Positions 7,734 through 28,916 of a stretch of 29,742 bases of DNA are shown piece by piece; the first letter of the stretch is position 1, and the number at the start of each line of letters is the position of its first letter. The DNA is taken from the IMG/VR virus record IMGVR_UViG_3300030333_000465, positions 12,349 through 42,090 of that record, one strand, 5' to 3'. The notes below the pieces were generated by a model, which was not told the DNA's origin, made no database searches, and saw only the letters and a list, made by a program, of their open reading frames with translations. The position numbers and the translations under genes were made by a program. Source of the stretch: a virus.

Positions 7734-8417
7734 TTATACTACCTGCATATCCCAACAATTTAAATTAGCTGCTACTGTTCTACGTTCACCTTCACCTTGA
7801 AAAGGATAGACCATATGTTGTAACCAACTTGGGAACATATAAAGCTTTCCTACCTGTGGTTGTATTACAAAGCTTTGTGGAGGTTTTAAAATATCCACAT
7901 CTGTAACGTGTTGCTGTCCATAATTAAAAGCTAAATATCCATCACAATGACCACTAGAGTTATATAAATTATATTCAGATGTTCCTGCTGTAGGTTGATC
8001 TAATATTTGCTGTGGTACTTTTGTCCAAGTTGTGCAAGAAATACCCATCATTGTTTTAGTTCCGTGACTATGTATTGGGTTGTAGTCTCTTTCGTAACTG
8101 TGTACTGACCAAAGCTCATCCATTTCTACACGCTTGTTAGTTTTGTAAGCTGCACCAGTAGCTTTAGAAAAATGATTAATATATTCAGCTCCTAGTCCAC
8201 ACAACATATTAGTAAACTCTACAACTTTTTCATCATTATGATTCATTAACAGTTGTTGTCCGTGTTGTATCTGTCCAACAAGTGTGCTTGCTAGTGACTT
8301 ACGACCTTTTTCTTTTAGATAAGCATCTAAGTAGGTATTGAGATCTGTCACCATCTCTTCTGGTATGTCGTGTTCTAATACAAAAACACTAGGCATACCG
8401 TGCATTTGAGTAGCCAT
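7734..8417 (-). CDS. 2-oxoglutarate/Fe(II) dioxygenase-like protein, 227 aa
   Basis: Residues 113-118 read NPIHSH, giving the paired histidines H116 and H118. Near the C-terminus GKLYMFPSWLQHMVYPF (residues 190-206) places a third histidine at H201, followed by an arginine pair (R212/R213) ahead of the AANLN strand. This matches the pattern of phage-encoded double-stranded beta-helix 2OG-Fe(II) oxygenases: an HxH(D) facial metal site, a distal His after FPS, and an Arg that binds 2-oxoglutarate. The family hydroxylates proteins or small molecules; the substrate here is unknown. It lies among tail genes, 1 bp from the preceding small gene. The match is by motif, without a database search. Confidence 0.75.
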   Translation of the reverse strand: MATQMHGMPSVFVLEHDIPEEMVTDLNTYLDAYLKEKGRKSLASTLVGQIQHGQQLLMNHNDEKVVEFTNMLCGLGAEYINHFSKATGAAYKTNKRVEMDELWSVHSYERDYNPIHSHGTKTMMGISCTTWTKVPQQILDQPTAGTSEYNLYNSSGHCDGYLAFNYGQQHVTDVDILKPPQSFVIQPQVGKLYMFPSWLQHMVYPFQGEGERRTVAANLNCWDMQVV

Positions 8418-8736: not shown

Positions 8737-11700
8737 TTAATTTTCCTCACTAAGTTTTTTTTCTAATTCTTCAATTTTTGCTGAAAGTTCTTGTACTGCT
8801 TTTATTAATGGATGTATAAACATTTCTTGAGATACACCTTGTTGCGTGTGATCTCCAGTAGTTATAGAGTTCCAGCCACCAAAATCTGTAATGTTGTGTT
8901 TGTCCATAGCTGCTTTTACTTCTTGAGCAATTAATCCATATAGTTTTTCTGGATGATCAGCAGTAGTTTTTTCAGCATCATAATCTGGAAAACTAGGATC
9001 AAGTTCTGATTTCGCTTTCCATTTGAAAGTAACTGGTCTTAAATCATTTATAAAATCTAAACCACAATCTGTATTATCTTGTATTTCTTTTTTGTATCTT
9101 TCGTCTGACACCCTTGTCCAAGAAGCATCAGTTGTATATGGATTATAAACTCTATCGTTTCCAGAACCAGTTCCAAAAACAAAATAGTTTGAACCAACAC
9201 CTTTACACTCAAATCCTAAAACTATTTCTTTGCTTTCATTAGCTTGTTGTGCATCAGCGTTAGCACCAATAATAGTATTGTTACTTCCTATACTAGAAAG
9301 ATCACCAGCTAAATATCCAATACAAGTATTATTACTTGATCCTGTATTAGCTCCTAAAGCATCAGCACCGATTGCGGTATTTCCACTACCTGTCGTAGTT
9401 GCATCCGCAGCGTTTTGACCAACTGCTACATTTAACTGTCCTGTAGTAACTGCCTCTAATGCACTAACACCTAATCCTGTATTATAAGAACCTGTTGTTA
9501 CATTAAAACAAGCATTATGACCCATAGCTGTATTTTCAGTACCAGAAGTATTGCTATATAATGCTTGAAAGCCAACTGCTGTATTGTCGGAAGCGGTAGT
9601 TGCAGTAAATAATGCATCTTGTCCTATTGCTGTGTTGTCATCACCTGTTGTAATATCAATACCAGCTCCTTTACCCAATGCTGTATTATTAGTACCTGTT
9701 GTATTTGCTTCTAAAGCTCTAAAACCAACTGCGGTGTTATCAGATGCTGTTGTATTAGCTCCTAGAGCGTTGTAGCCTACTGAGGTATTATTAGCACCTG
9801 TGGTGTTTGATGCTAAAGCATAAGTTCCAAATGCTTGGTTTTCAGAACCTGTAGTGTTTAAATCGAGAGCGTGGTAACCAACACCAGTATTGTTACTTGC
9901 GGTAGTATTTGCAGATAAAGCTCCTTTTCCAACTGCTGTATTAGAAGCTCCAGTTGTATTTAATGTAAGAGCAACAAGACCTACAGCAGTATTGTCGTTT
10001 GCTGTTGTATTAGCTTCTAAGGCTTTTTGTCCTACTGCTACGTTTTGCGTTCCAGTTGTATTCGCTGATAAAGCATCGTATCCAACTGCAACATTATTAG
10101 ACGCTGTGGTGTTAGCATCTAAAGCATTAGCTCCGACTGCTACGTTTTGAGTACCTGTTGTGTTTACAGTTAAAGCATTTATACCAACTGCTGTATTGTT
10201 ATCTGCTGTTGTGTTAGCTCCTAAAGCACTTTGACCAATAGCAGTGTTATTGTCTCCTGTAGTATTAGCATCTAAAGAATAAGAACCTACTGCTACATTT
10301 TTTTCACCTGTTGTAGTTAATTTTCCAGAATTATAGCCAATGGTGACATTTTTCTGACCTGTGGTTATTGCTTCTCCAGCACCTCTTCCAAGAGCAGTAT
10401 TTTTAGTACCTGTGGTAATTGCTGCACCCGCATTAAACCCAACAACTGTATTATCATCACCCGTTGTCAAGGCTGCAAATACATCAACACCTACACCAGT
10501 ATTGTAGTTAGCAGCATCAATAGTTCCTGTAGCATTGTCTCCAATCATAATTGAAGAAGTACCAAAAGTTTTAGCATCTGATAAATCGTTTATTGAACTA
10601 GCTCCACCACTAGCAGCATTTTCCCAAGCTACTCCACTTCCTGTAGAAGTTAGTACTTGTCCATCACTACCTTGTGATCCACCAACTGTTAGGTTATCTG
10701 TTTCTAGTGTTCCATCAATATCTACGTCACCGCTTATGTCTAATGTGGCTGCGTCTAACTCACCTGTAATAGTTAAGTTTCTTAAGCCTGTGTAATCTTT
10801 ATTAGAATCGAGTATGACTGCTTTAGATGCTATTGCTGTGCCGACAGCCGTTGAACCTAAGTCTAATGCGTTTATTTCACCAACAACAACTGTTGCTCCG
10901 TCTAGGATATTTAGTTCTGCTGCAGTACTTGTAACACCATCAAGTATATTTAACTCTGCTGTAGTGCTTGTAACACCATCAAGTATATTTAACTCTGCTG
11001 CAGTACTTGTGACACCGTCTAAAATGTTTAACTCGGCTGCTGTAGAAGTAACTGCAGTTCCGTTAATTGATAAAGCGTCTGTTTCTAAAGTACCATCAAT
11101 ATCTGCATCACCTGAAATGTCTAGAGTTGCAGCGTCTAGTTCACCTGTAATAGTTAAGTTTCTAACACCTGTATAATCTTTGTTAGAATCTAGTATAACT
11201 GCTTTAGAAGCAATAGCTGTACCAACTGCTGTAGAACCTAAGTCTAGTGCGTTTATTTCTCCAACAACTACAGTAGCTCCATCAAGTATATTAAGTTCTT
11301 CTGGTGTAGAACTAATCTGAGTAGTTGAAGCTGCAGCTAATACTGGAATTGTACCAGATACATTAGGAAGATTTATTGTTCTATCTCCTGTAGGATCAAC
11401 AATGCTTAGTGTAGTTTCGTGTGCATCTGCTGTAGCACCTTCAAAAATAATAGCATTTGAAGCTTCCATTGTAACGGTATCTACAGTTGTTGTTGTTCCT
11501 GATACACTTAAATTAGGAACAAGAAGTGTTCCTGAACTTGGATTGTATCTTAATGCTCCTGTATCATCAAGTAAAGCATTTGACTCGTCATGGAAAACAA
11601 CAGGAAAATTTGTATTTGCTGTGCTGTCAGATACTGTAACTGTTGAAGCTAGTGTTACTGTAGTTCCTGCAATAACACTTGATAAAGCTGTACCATTAAC

Positions 11701-13089
11701 TGTAATTGCATCAGCTTCAAGAGTACCGTCTATGTCTGCGTTACCACTAATATCTAAAGTAGCAGCATCAAGTTCTCCAGAGATTGTAATGTTTCTACCA
11801 CCGCTTATATCTTTATTAGAATCTGTAATAATTGCTTTACTTGCAATAACTGTACCGTTAGTAATGCCATCAATAAGATTAATATCCGAAGCACTTGCTG
11901 TAACTCCATCAAGTATATTGAGTTCTGCTGTGGTGCTAGTTACACCATCTAAAATGTTTAATTCTGATGCAGTACTTGTAACACCGTCTAATATATTTAA
12001 CTCTGCAGCAGTTGAAGTAACTCCGTCTAAAATATTTAATTCTGCAGTAGTTAATGTAGCTCCGTCAAGAATGTTAAGTTCTGCTGCAGTTGATGTTGTA
12101 GCTAAACTTACTGCTCCACTAGAAACTGTAAAATCATCTGAACTAAATGAAGCTACACCTTTGTTAGATGTGCTTGCATCTTCACCTGCAATAGTAATTG
12201 TATTGCTAGATGCAGAAGTATCAATACCTTCTCCACCTGCTATAGTCAATGTTTCACTATCTAAGTCAATAGCTATTGTACCACTATCTGTAGTAGCATC
12301 TAAATCTTGTGCTGTTACTTGAGAGTCTACATAAGCTTTAATAGACTGTTGAGATGCAATACCTGTAGCACTATCAGAAGACAAATCATCTTCATCAAGA
12401 AATGCTTTACCATCTAGAATGTTTAACTCTGCTGCTGTAGAGGTTACTCCATCCAATATGTTTAGTTCTGCAACAGTAGATGTAATTCCGTCTAGCGCAT
12501 TAATCTCTGCTGCGGTAGCTGTAACTCCATCAAGGATATTAAGTTCTGCAACAGTAGAAGTAATTCCATCAAGTGCGTTTATTTCAGCAGCAGTAGCAGT
12601 AACACCGTCCATTATGTTTAATTCTGCTGTAGTTGCAGTAACTCCGTCTAGTATATTTAGTTCGGCTGCGGTAGCACTTATAGCAGTTCCATTAAAGTTT
12701 ATTGCATCTGCATAAAGTGTTCCATCAAAATAACCATCTTTAAACTCTAAAGAACTTGTGCCTAAATCAATATCGTTATCTGTAACAGGAACAATAGCTC
12801 CATCTTGAACTCTAATTTGTTCTACAGCAGCACTAGAAACTTCTACAAAAAAACCAACTCTATTATTAGTTCCATCAACAACAACTTTATTTAAAAAGTC
12901 TAAGTCTCCTATTTGTGGAACATTACCACCTTGTCCTGCGCTTCCATCATGTCTGTGTCCTGTAGAAGATGCGCTACTTGAAGAATAGCTAAAAGCGTTT
13001 AATAGTTGATTGTATTCGTTATTAAAAAGCGCAGCAGTTATAGTATCTCCGTCTGCTATTGTACTTTGTCTGGTGTATGATTGAGCCAT
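8737..13089 (-). CDS. Repeat-rich tail fibre with C-terminal peptidase S74 chaperone domain, 1450 aa
   Basis: Four parts can be seen. Residues about 1-140 form a non-repetitive N-terminal region, the likely tail attachment part. Residues about 145-730 carry many copies of a [12 protein letters not shown] unit, mixed with longer duplicated blocks ([14 protein letters not shown] and [20 protein letters not shown] each occur more than once). Residues about 850-1285 carry roughly 25 units of about 15-17 residues with the pattern NTAVGxxAL-xxNTTG. From about 1320 to the end is an S74-type intramolecular chaperone: SDERYKKEI has the Ser and Lys expected of the autocleavage dyad, followed by [11 protein letters not shown] and a final coiled coil ([16 protein letters not shown]). 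By family, the chaperone trimerises the fibre and then cuts itself off. Host recognition is inferred. Confidence 0.9.
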
Positions 13090-26351: not shown

Positions 26352-26631
26352 TCAACATTGTTGCCTTTATCATACACCTCGCAATCAACTAACTGATGCA
26401 CAAGCAGAGGTCAGGAGATTTTTAAGTTTCGAGACAGCTCAAAAATACTTATGGTCTTTTAAAGTAAAGTGTAAGAACAGAAGTCTTGCTTCTAAAGACA
26501 AAGTGTTTTTATTTGAGAATCGTTCTAAAAGCTTTTATGTCTTTAGAACTTGGTGTCATACATATGAAAAATACATTTGGAATGTTCAACCATTACCTAA
26601 CAACTTTAAAAGGAGATACTACAATGGATAG
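26344..26631 (+). CDS. Early-type hypothetical protein, 95 aa
   Basis: ATG at 26,344 with GGAGAG upstream, inside the end of the 50-aa gene. The protein is rich in aromatic and basic residues: CCLYHTPRNQLTDAQAEVRRFLSFETAQKYLW, then KVKCKNRSLASKDKVF and a SKSFYVFRTWCHTYEKYIW segment. Two cysteines at 6-7 and others at about 43 and 76 are visible, but no clear zinc motif. It overlaps the next gene by 8 bases. Function unknown. Confidence 0.65.
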   Translation: MNNQHCCLYHTPRNQLTDAQAEVRRFLSFETAQKYLWSFKVKCKNRSLASKDKVFLFENRSKSFYVFRTWCHTYEKYIWNVQPLPNNFKRRYYNG

Positions 26632-26953
26632 TTCTAACTTTAGTCTTAAAGGTGGTCAAGGTTTTCAGATTACATTTGAAAATGGGTATACTGTATCTGT
26701 ACAGTTTGGTGAGTATCACTACTGTTCAAATAGAAATCTTGGCTCTCCAACTTGTGAAGAAACTGTACATGATTGTGCTAATGCTGAAACAGCTATTTTT
26801 TATAAAGGTGATAAATTCCTTGAATATAAAGGCGGTGATGTTCAGAGTTATCAAAGTCCTAAAGAAGTTTTAGAAACTTTAAAATATGCAGAAAGTTTAC
26901 CTAATCCTGAGTGTGTTGAAAAAGGATGTAATTGTTATGAAAAGGAGGAATAA
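26624..26953 (+). CDS. Early-type hypothetical protein with FENGYTVSVQFG motif, 109 aa
   Basis: The start at 26,624 is chosen over upstream in-frame ATGs because AAAGGAG lies 7 bases before it and it overlaps the previous stop by 8 bases. The N-terminal part (GGQGFQITFENGYTVSVQFGEYHYC) resembles a short beta domain found in small phage proteins of unknown role ('F.NG.TVSVQFG...YC'). Cysteines in the middle (SPTCEETVHDC) and near the end (NPECVEKGCNC) could bind metal. No catalytic motif is visible. Confidence 0.7.
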   Translation: MDSSNFSLKGGQGFQITFENGYTVSVQFGEYHYCSNRNLGSPTCEETVHDCANAETAIFYKGDKFLEYKGGDVQSYQSPKEVLETLKYAESLPNPECVEKGCNCYEKEE

Positions 26954-26982
26954 ATATGGATACATTTTAATCTTAAACGCGT

Positions 26983-27021
26983 GCGTAACCACTTGACAAC
27001 AACTTTGGCTTTTGCCATAAT
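26983..27021 (+). promoter_or_regulatory. Rightward promoter with upstream GCGTAACC box
   Basis: GCGTAACC (26,983-26,990) is again 2 bp upstream of the -35 box TTGACA (26,993-26,998), with -10 CATAAT (27,016-27,021) after 17 bp. The predicted start is 27,028, where the hairpin GTCGGC-ACTT-GCTGAC (27,028-27,043, one G-U pair) begins. It serves the 133-aa gene and probably the structured RNA region beyond it. Confidence 0.8.
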
Positions 27022-27076
27022 ATATGGGTCGGCACTTGCTGACTTTAATTTAACTTTTACCTAAAGAGGAGGGCTT

Positions 27077-27478
27077 ATGGCTCACGTTACTTCAAAAAAC
27101 TTTATTACTTATTCTGCTCGTGGCAGTAAAACTACAACTTCAATTAAAGATGCACCTTTATCAGTGCAAAACTTATGGTTTGCAGGTTCTAGAATTGGTG
27201 CAAGTATTATACGAGTTCGTTCTAGCAAAAACAGACAAGGTTACTCACAAGGTAACACTTTTCATGCTTACCACAAAGACAGAACTTCTGTATACATTCC
27301 TAAATCAGATCCTAAACCTAGTGATAGACTTAGTTTCAAAAAGACTGTTGGTCTTAATCAAACTAATCCTTCAATGCAGATTTTGGAGATGCCACTTAGT
27401 TGTGATATACAGCCTTGCTTTGATGCTGTTAGAGAAGCAGACGCAGGTAACAAACTGCATACTGCAATCTTCAGTTAA
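27077..27478 (+). CDS. Early-type hypothetical protein, 133 aa
   Basis: ATG at 27,077 after AGAGGAGGG. The product is basic, Ser/Thr-rich and likely beta-rich: AHVTSKNFITYSARGSKTTT, then NLWFAGSRIGASIIRVRSSKNRQGY and FHAYHKDRTSVYIPKSDPKPSDRLSF. The mixture of aromatic and basic residues could suit RNA or DNA binding, but no family was recognised. It is the first gene behind a strong promoter, and the structured RNA region begins 16 bases after its stop. An overlapping frame at 27,120-27,497 is a shadow. Confidence 0.7.
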   Translation: MAHVTSKNFITYSARGSKTTTSIKDAPLSVQNLWFAGSRIGASIIRVRSSKNRQGYSQGNTFHAYHKDRTSVYIPKSDPKPSDRLSFKKTVGLNQTNPSMQILEMPLSCDIQPCFDAVREADAGNKLHTAIFS

Positions 27479-27847
27479 TACTGAGGAGGAAATTTAAATA
27501 GGTGTGTTCTGGTAGTGCTAGCACAAACACTTAATGAGGACTAAACAAACGCCACCAAATCCTCGCCTATTTAATCAGTCTGCCTAACAATGTAATGTAG
27601 AGTTGTTAGGGTGACTATAAAAGCGCATCTACTGCAGGAGACGGACTGGGTAAACCACGGTATAAGATAGTCAAGCGGAGCCGTCAGAGGAAGTTGGTAG
27701 TTACTTCGTGACTAAAAAACTACTTTTTTAAAAGGGTTTCACATATAAATCTGACGACTAATGTGTGTAATCAAATAGTCTAGACAGTTAGCTACTGTGA
27801 TAAACATTGTTCCCTTATCTTTTAATACACTAACAAAGGAGTACCTT
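27479..27847 (+). ncRNA. Candidate structured RNA with pseudoknot (369-bp gene-free stretch)
   Basis: No frame is supported. Stems found by hand: TTAAATAGGTG/CGCCTATTTAA (27,494-27,504/27,564-27,574) closing a junction with GTGCTAGCAC (27,515-27,524) and AGGA/TCCT (27,537-27,540/27,560-27,563); CAGTCTG/CGGACTG (27,576-27,582/27,642-27,648) around CCTAACAA/TTGTTAGG (27,583-27,590/27,603-27,610); GACTAT/ATAGTC (27,613-27,618/27,667-27,672), which crosses the previous stem as a pseudoknot; CGTCAGA/TCTGACG (27,682-27,688/27,750-27,756) around TAGTTAC-TTC-GTGACTA (27,698-27,714); and ACAGT/ACTGT (27,784-27,798). TAAGATAGTC resembles a group I intron core strand, but P4-P6 cannot be found. It has no own promoter and would be cut or read from the 27,028 transcript. 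Confidence 0.55.
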
Positions 27848-28204
27848 ATGAAAGGCTATCTTATTGATCCGTTCGATCAAACAATTAAACCAGTTACATT
27901 ACAAAAAGACAATACACTAGGACAAATTTATGTTTTATGCCAGTGTGAGCGTATTGATGGAGTTTACAGTATAGATGGTCATACTATATTTGTAGATGAT
28001 GAAGGTTTGTTTGTTGAAAACCAAAGATATTTTAAATACAATGGTCAATCTTTAGCAGGTAGAGCTTTAGTATTAGGAGCAACTGAAGAAGGTGATAGCT
28101 CTGATGCTGAAGAATGGGTTTTAGAACACTTACAACAATATGTTGAATGGAAACCTAAGGGCTTTTCACTTCAACCTCGTATGGACTTTATAGCTTGGGA
28201 GTAA
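27848..28204 (+). CDS. Early-type hypothetical acidic protein, 118 aa
   Basis: The frame is open from 27,797, but the start at 27,848 is chosen because AAAGGAG lies 7 bases before it and the upstream codons fall in the structured RNA. The product begins MKGYLIDPFDQTIKPVTLQ and is acidic with a CQCERIDGVYSIDGHTIFVDDEG part that looks beta-rich, and a C-terminal EEWVLEHLQQYVEWKP segment. The DP(F/Y)...I..V...L..I...L..... pattern is common in small phage proteins of unknown role. It ends 4 bp before the Gp88-like gene. Confidence 0.7.
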   Translation: MKGYLIDPFDQTIKPVTLQKDNTLGQIYVLCQCERIDGVYSIDGHTIFVDDEGLFVENQRYFKYNGQSLAGRALVLGATEEGDSSDAEEWVLEHLQQYVEWKPKGFSLQPRMDFIAWE

Positions 28205-28208
28205 ACAA

Positions 28209-28916
28209 ATGTTTAAATTATTATCAGCACCTGACAGCAATCCTAAAGTTGCTAAAGGTAATAATGAATTGAGTGAGTACATATCTACTATTATGCACTT
28301 GAGTCCTTCCTCAACTAAGATATGTCCGTTTCAAATTATAGCTAAGTGTAAAGGTCCTTGTCTTAATAACACTGGTATGGCTAAAGTATTTCCTAGCATA
28401 CATAAAGCCAGAGAAAGAAAGACTGCTTTGTTTTTAAATGACAGACCACAGTTTATGGCACTATTAGTATTAGATATTATAAAGTTTATAGGTTACTGTA
28501 CACGAAGAGGTAAAAAGCCTGCTATTAGATTGAACGGAACATCAGATATACAATGGGAAACTATTGAGGTTGAGTGTGGTCAAAACATATTTCAAATGTT
28601 TCCAGAAGTACAATTCTACGACTACACGAAGATACCTAATCGTAAAGTATCACACATACCTAACTATCATCTAACTTGGTCATACTCAGAAGCCAACAAG
28701 AAGTATGCAGATTACTTTGACAGTATTAAATACAATGTAGCAGTTGTATTCAAAGAAGGATTACCTAAGACTTTCAAAGGTTTACGTGTCATTGATGGTG
28801 ATAAGACAGACATGAGATTCCTTGACGGCAATAAGCGTGTCGTGGTAGGATTGAAAGCTAAAGGTGATGCTAAGACAGACACCAGTGGATTTGTAATTAA
28901 TTGGAGAACAGCATGA
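28209..28916 (+). CDS. Gene product 88 (Gp88)-family protein, 235 aa
   Basis: Matches the Gp88 family known from actinophages and many marine phages: IMHLSPS at 28-34, a cysteine cluster C39-x7-C47-x3-C51 in ICPFQIIAKCKGPCLNNTG, KARERKTALF at 67-76, RLNGTSDI at 107-114, FPEVQFYDYTKI at 131-142 and NYHLTWSYSE at 152-161. The three cysteines are suited to binding a metal or Fe-S cluster, and the order of motifs recalls a barrel-type enzyme; the biochemical activity is not known. It overlaps the next gene by 4 bases (ATGA). Confidence 0.85.
   Translation: MFKLLSAPDSNPKVAKGNNELSEYISTIMHLSPSSTKICPFQIIAKCKGPCLNNTGMAKVFPSIHKARERKTALFLNDRPQFMALLVLDIIKFIGYCTRRGKKPAIRLNGTSDIQWETIEVECGQNIFQMFPEVQFYDYTKIPNRKVSHIPNYHLTWSYSEANKKYADYFDSIKYNVAVVFKEGLPKTFKGLRVIDGDKTDMRFLDGNKRVVVGLKAKGDAKTDTSGFVINWRTA

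Follow-up and report, generated by a model that had tools for sequence, protein, structure and literature searches.

Genomic context of the structured stretch

The window, the whole stretch of DNA analysed here (29,742 nucleotides), comprises bases 12,349–42,090 of a 42,090-base virus record, IMGVR_UViG_3300030333_000465. The terminase encoded in the window shares 65–68% identity with those of the Pelagibacter phages HTVC103P, HTVC104P and HTVC115P and ~49% with that of HMO-2011, and on the basis of these identities we assign the virus to the HMO-2011-type phages. The phage has a G+C content of 35.4%; its early genes lie on the + strand and its late genes on the − strand, and the record ends inside the early region. 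On the − strand, the window also contains a gene for a probable tail fibre (8737–13089, 1450 aa) with many repeats and a second, NTAVG-rich repeat region, and a gene near the tail genes (7734–8417) whose 227-aa product looks by eye like a 2OG-Fe(II) oxygenase.

The stretch at 27,479–27,847 is a conserved RNA of exchangeable knotted modules located between two early genes. Its layout consists of four modules, named P, A, T and B in order. The main features of the locus are as follows.

26993–27021, + strand: sigma-70-like promoter TTGACA-17-CATAAT, a consensus match only (11/12), with TG before the second hexamer
27077–27478, + strand: upstream gene, 133 aa, family unknown, with orthologues in relatives L002–L006
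27490–27575, + strand: module P, also present in L051 and L053
27577–27688, + strand: module A, pseudoknotted, 19 distinct copies
27690–27724, + strand: module T, an H-type pseudoknot, found by blind grammar scans
27732–27816, + strand: module B
27848–28204, + strand: downstream gene, 118 aa, DUF3846 (PF12957, E 6.9e-10)
28209–28916, + strand: Gp88 family gene, 235 aa (PF17338)

Judging from its sequence, the promoter at 26993–27021 could drive both the upstream gene and the RNA; a promoter scan found no strong promoter inside 27,479–27,847.

The stretch is non-coding and matches no known RNA family

An earlier sequence-only reading described this stretch as a pseudoknotted RNA, and the stems it named are present, including both crossing ones: 27,576–27,582/27,642–27,648 forms seven pairs, one of them G-U, and 27,613–27,618/27,667–27,672 forms six. 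There is no internal gene, as every + strand open reading frame of at least 40 aa in the stretch is a flanking gene read in another frame or in extended form. The indels between relatives have lengths that are not multiples of three, and conserved coding was not found in the relatives. Folded as a single sequence, the whole stretch is no more stable than chance (MFE −79.2 versus a shuffle mean of −82.5, z +0.60). When the modules were folded alone, only P stood out, with MFE z values of −2.65 for P, −0.34 for A, −1.31 for T and −0.05 for B.

The window gave no Rfam match at the gathering score and no meaningful one at E ≤ 10, which leaves the known ribozymes without a match, and ARAGORN found no tRNA or tmRNA in it. 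Nothing was found by BLASTN of the stretch and of the module array of relative L138 against annotated phages, or by a protein search with the upstream gene, and no report of these RNAs was found in the open-licence literature searched. Among the relatives' loci, an Rfam scan gave matches only in cyanophage loci. Additionally, we observed a conserved ~36 nt element (AGTCTCGGGATGACTATAAAAGCGCACTGGTCGGGA and variants) in cyanomyoviruses (L132, L135, L141, L168, L171, L186 and L218–L225), which often lies beside tRNA genes or wcaG RNA and is covered by no Rfam family in the loci scanned.

The two crossing helices follow the order of P3 and P7 in the core of group I introns, and a reduced intron had been proposed for this reason. 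We consider a reduced group I intron, or another known ribozyme, extremely improbable. P4–P6 is absent, with only the hairpin H2 between the P3-like and P7-like 5′ strands; no intron family or other Rfam family matches; and there are no exons and no split gene. The stretch lies between complete genes and its modules are lost independently in relatives, which does not fit one removable unit.

Module A contains conserved, covarying helices

Related loci were collected with the Gp88 family gene as query, yielding 26, and further loci came from exact matches to parts of A and B or, without use of the RNA sequence, from a search with the gene that lies downstream of the RNA in some relatives. The 19 distinct copies of module A share five helices.

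27578–27581/27643–27646: H1, part of the 27,576 stem of the earlier reading, overlapping H5
27583–27590/27603–27610: H2
27597–27601/27628–27632: H3, pairing the H2 hairpin loop with a downstream strand
27613–27618/27667–27672: H4, the 27,613 stem of the earlier reading
27640–27644/27681–27685: H5

In a manual helix-anchored count, H3, H4 and H5 are fully paired in 19/19 copies, and H2 keeps 7/8 pairs. Comparison gives strong evidence for the fold: the paired cells of H3, H4 and H5 amount to 100% across the 19 distinct copies, versus 93.5% in shuffled and 24–48% in slid controls. On alignment A3, 24 cells changed on both sides versus 8.4 in controls; H2 was excluded from this formal count, since the alignment places its 3′ strand one column off. 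Support is strongest for H3, which shows compensatory changes in 3/5 pairs and occurs as GTAGA/TCTAC, GCATG/CATGC and GTATG/CATAC, while H5 has one compensatory pair. In H4 the only changes are of the kinds G-C/G-U and U-A/U-G. H1 is kept in the copies, with just two G-U-type changes and no two-sided change, and for it the shuffle control is uninformative. Covariation is present for H2, H3 and H5, whereas H1 and H4 show only G-U-type changes; since the copies fall into few subtypes, these represent few independent events. The stems originally listed are correct, but other helices have better support than the two crossing stems taken as the core, and H3 was absent from that list. The suggestion of a pseudoknotted riboregulator or new RNA class agrees with the conserved, covarying helices and the lack of an Rfam match.

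The unpaired parts of A within GACTATAAAAGCGCA are invariant in 19/19 copies. This sequence served as the search string for some of the copies, and those fetched via the neighbouring gene alone keep it too. A scan of genome contigs for module A returned two matches, neither of which looks like module A. We also observed a 15-nt match between module A and a conserved element of Synechococcus phages; these elements have AGTCT...GACTATAAAAGCGCA in common with A, but the search seed makes up most of that string, and the nucleotides conserved in the elements differ from those of A.

Module T is a pseudoknot positioned before start codons

Module T consists of two stems and an A-rich third loop, and is followed by a U-run.

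27690–27694/27703–27707: S1
27696–27702/27718–27724: S2
27708–27717: third loop, A-rich

The blind scans used a grammar of a 5-bp S1, a short first loop, a 7-bp S2 and an A-rich third loop. The strict form gave 22 unique matches in 1.18 Mb (both strands), ~20 of them alike, versus 1 per 119 kb in randomised sequence. With a looser form, in which a U-run and a tail of Shine-Dalgarno-like sequence were additionally demanded, there were 37 unique matches in 1.55 Mb, of which roughly 27 were T-like, versus 2 per 135 kb. This background is not negligible, and a few of the matches are chance. The stem sequences are wholly different between copies and the fold is kept; because the scans demand pairing, a table of T stems is circular on its own, and the independent support for T comes from its position before genes.

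Specifically, T-type knots on the coding strand precede at least 12 gene families, mostly with 24–36 nt from the end of S2 to the start codon. Four different sets of T stems occur before the orthologous c15 gene, all at 29–33 nt. The exceptions are L018 (65 nt) and L012, L015 and L016 (94–95 nt), and T copies that have another module after them, as in the window, lie 123–124 nt from the start codon. Modules in the interior of an array are likewise distant from start codons. A U-run and a Shine-Dalgarno sequence lie between the T-type knot and the start codon. The tails 3′ of T are U-/A-rich (e.g. CCGAATTTTTAAAA and ACATTTTTTAACAA), and regular UUAAA/UAAA repeats are not evident in them. No T-type pseudoknot was found in the first 12 kb of cultivated HTVC104P and HTVC115P, so the element is not universal.

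The location between co-directional genes, together with T stems that can change fully while the fold is kept, would suit elements of mRNA stability or processing between early-operon cistrons that act without a specific ligand. The non-helical parts of A are more invariant than a stable fold needs, and we regard this explanation as very unlikely.

Where it adjoins A, T can also form a nested hairpin. In the window this hairpin has 7 pairs, is the structure of predicted MFE and is mutually exclusive with S2; in some relatives (compare L036) it shows compensatory change. A two-state switch between pseudoknot and nested hairpin is thus possible at T, as judged from structure prediction. Such switch-like behaviour, and the U-run that follows S2 in nearly all leader copies, would also fit a transcription attenuator, in which S2 plus the U-run would form a terminator ahead of each gene under some conditions only, depending on the upstream modules. 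We consider attenuation unlikely: a terminator scan of the + strand from 26500 to 28300, covering loops of 3–8 nt, found none; the gap between S2 and the U-run varies from 0 to ~5 nt instead of being short and constant; and the loop is long, with an A/U-rich stem.

Modules are shuffled among relatives

The two outer modules of the window contain the following helices.

27494–27502/27566–27574: closing stem of P
27536–27540/27560–27564: inner hairpin of P, GAGGA/TCCTC
27732–27736/27812–27816: closing stem of B
27740–27744/27761–27765 with 27756–27760/27776–27780: pseudoknot of B
27784–27788/27794–27798: hairpin of B

Module P is swapped for another module in L002–L005. In the window, 31 nt separate the end of B from the start codon, and in L006 the place of B before the orthologue of the DUF3846 gene is taken by T, likewise 31 nt before the start codon. 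B is known in two sequence versions, in which the 3′ hairpin is exchanged and most of the rest is kept: ACAGT-TAGCT-ACTGT is replaced in L052 by the unrelated AAATAGGT-AGC-ACCTATTT. In L002–L005 the region is ~79% identical overall, and 57 nt of A and ~100 nt of B are identical.

P, A, T and B, along with the further modules C, D, E, F and G, occur singly or serially, in varying order and between different genes. A is found without B in L035 and L036, B without A in L007 and both in L032, and mixed arrangements occur in L005, L006 and L030. Because the modules adjoin many genes, we dropped the idea that they are tied to a single upstream gene family or to the c15 gene on the downstream side. 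The further modules in the same gaps (C in L043 2369–2480, L045, L051 and L053; E in L064, L053 and L197; F in L071, L128 and L138; G in L138 and L197) are structured, several of them having a closing stem of their own and likely pseudoknots; the differences between the C copies of L051 and L053 look compensatory.

This shuffling is independent of the neighbouring gene. Together with modules that are near-identical between phages whose flanks are ~79% alike, and with closing stems of their own in several modules, it could point to an array of small trans-acting pseudoknotted RNAs, swapped like accessory genes, that would inhibit host factors or defence or act as decoys for them. Such an array would hardly explain why the last module holds a preferred distance to the start codon, and neither a strong promoter inside the stretch nor an Rfam match to known decoy or antitoxin RNAs was found; we judge this reading quite unlikely.

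T-type pseudoknots in leaders of single-stranded DNA-binding protein (SSB) genes

In the relatives, T-type pseudoknots are present in 15/15 distinct leaders of SSB subtype 1 and in 4/4 of subtype 2 among those listed, with differing stems, compared with a chance rate of ~4 per 301 kb. Both diverged subtypes match PHROG 112, the gp2.5-like SSB, and the isolates HTVC103P, HTVC104P and HTVC115P have homologous SSB genes. The primase-helicase gene of L128 is also preceded by a T-type pseudoknot, and in L053 a promoter, TTGACT-17-TATAAT, lies directly before the SSB leader. The search for an SSB gene in the record of the window, which is a fragment, found none, and the next gene after the RNA is that of the DUF3846 protein.

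The SSB leaders (L049 1899–2038, L053 4040–4178 and others) also contain a long hairpin, ACAAACAAGAT/ATCTTGTTTGT. The loop sequence, GCCCTCATGTATCACCTTCCTT, hardly varies and is similar to the anti-Shine-Dalgarno at the 3′ end of 16S rRNA; it may pair with ribosome-binding sites.

Proposed role and comparison with known systems

We propose that the stretch is a cis-acting intercistronic leader RNA, a translational operator composed of exchangeable pseudoknot modules, and give this reading close to an even chance. The spacing to the start codon supports action in cis. As the general unit we envisage a compact module (T or its substitutes B and C) followed by a U-rich single strand, a Shine-Dalgarno sequence and a start codon ~30 nt on. 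The pseudoknot would be bound by a protein of the phage, with its own gp2.5-like SSB as the most likely candidate; this protein would spread over the U-rich stretch and stop ribosome entry, such that the early genes would be turned down when there is more SSB than DNA for it to bind. P and A, the larger 5′ modules, may serve to adjust or switch the T pseudoknot. By analogy, SSB is a possible but doubtful ligand, and the translational repression that we ascribe to it likewise follows the example of T4 gene 32. More doubtful still is a broader picture in which HMO-2011-type phages would carry a spreadable pseudoknot cassette that places many early genes, including those of SSB and the primase-helicase, under shared control of the phage SSB, as an RNA-based regulon whose modules are swapped between phages and genes by recombination.

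If true, the same layout with an unrelated SSB family, modular and placed before a dozen other early genes, would imply that such control has more than one origin and is able to spread in cassette form. The modules would also represent several RNA families that Rfam lacks, from a dominant ocean phage group, and the idea lends itself to direct testing in a simple system in vitro.

Type III antitoxin RNAs (ToxI) are small H-type pseudoknots upstream of a gene, and the modules described here resemble them in this respect. They differ in that there are no tandem identical repeats and no toxin gene, and in that many unrelated genes lie downstream.

A pseudoknot operator for a phage SSB is the textbook case from T4-like phages, and to our knowledge no autoregulation of gp2.5-like proteins has been described. 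The T4 gene 32 operator comprises a ~28 nt pseudoknot and a less structured A/U-rich stretch with the ribosome-binding site; the pseudoknot nucleates cooperative binding of gp32 across the A/U-rich stretch, and SSB bound to the pseudoknot and the A/U-rich leader represses translation (PMC535899; PMC3014915). Like the gene 32 operators of T4, T2 and RB69, the T-type element is an H-type pseudoknot 5′ of an A/U-rich unstructured stretch and a ribosome-binding site, it occurs in SSB gene leaders (here those of relatives), and its sequence diverges while the fold is kept. Unlike in those operators, the pseudoknot precedes at least 10 other gene families and is itself preceded or replaced by the pseudoknotted modules A, B, C and P. 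The SSB is gp2.5-like (PHROG 112) rather than of the gp32 family, and we therefore do not file the element as a member of the gene 32 type, although it may work alike.
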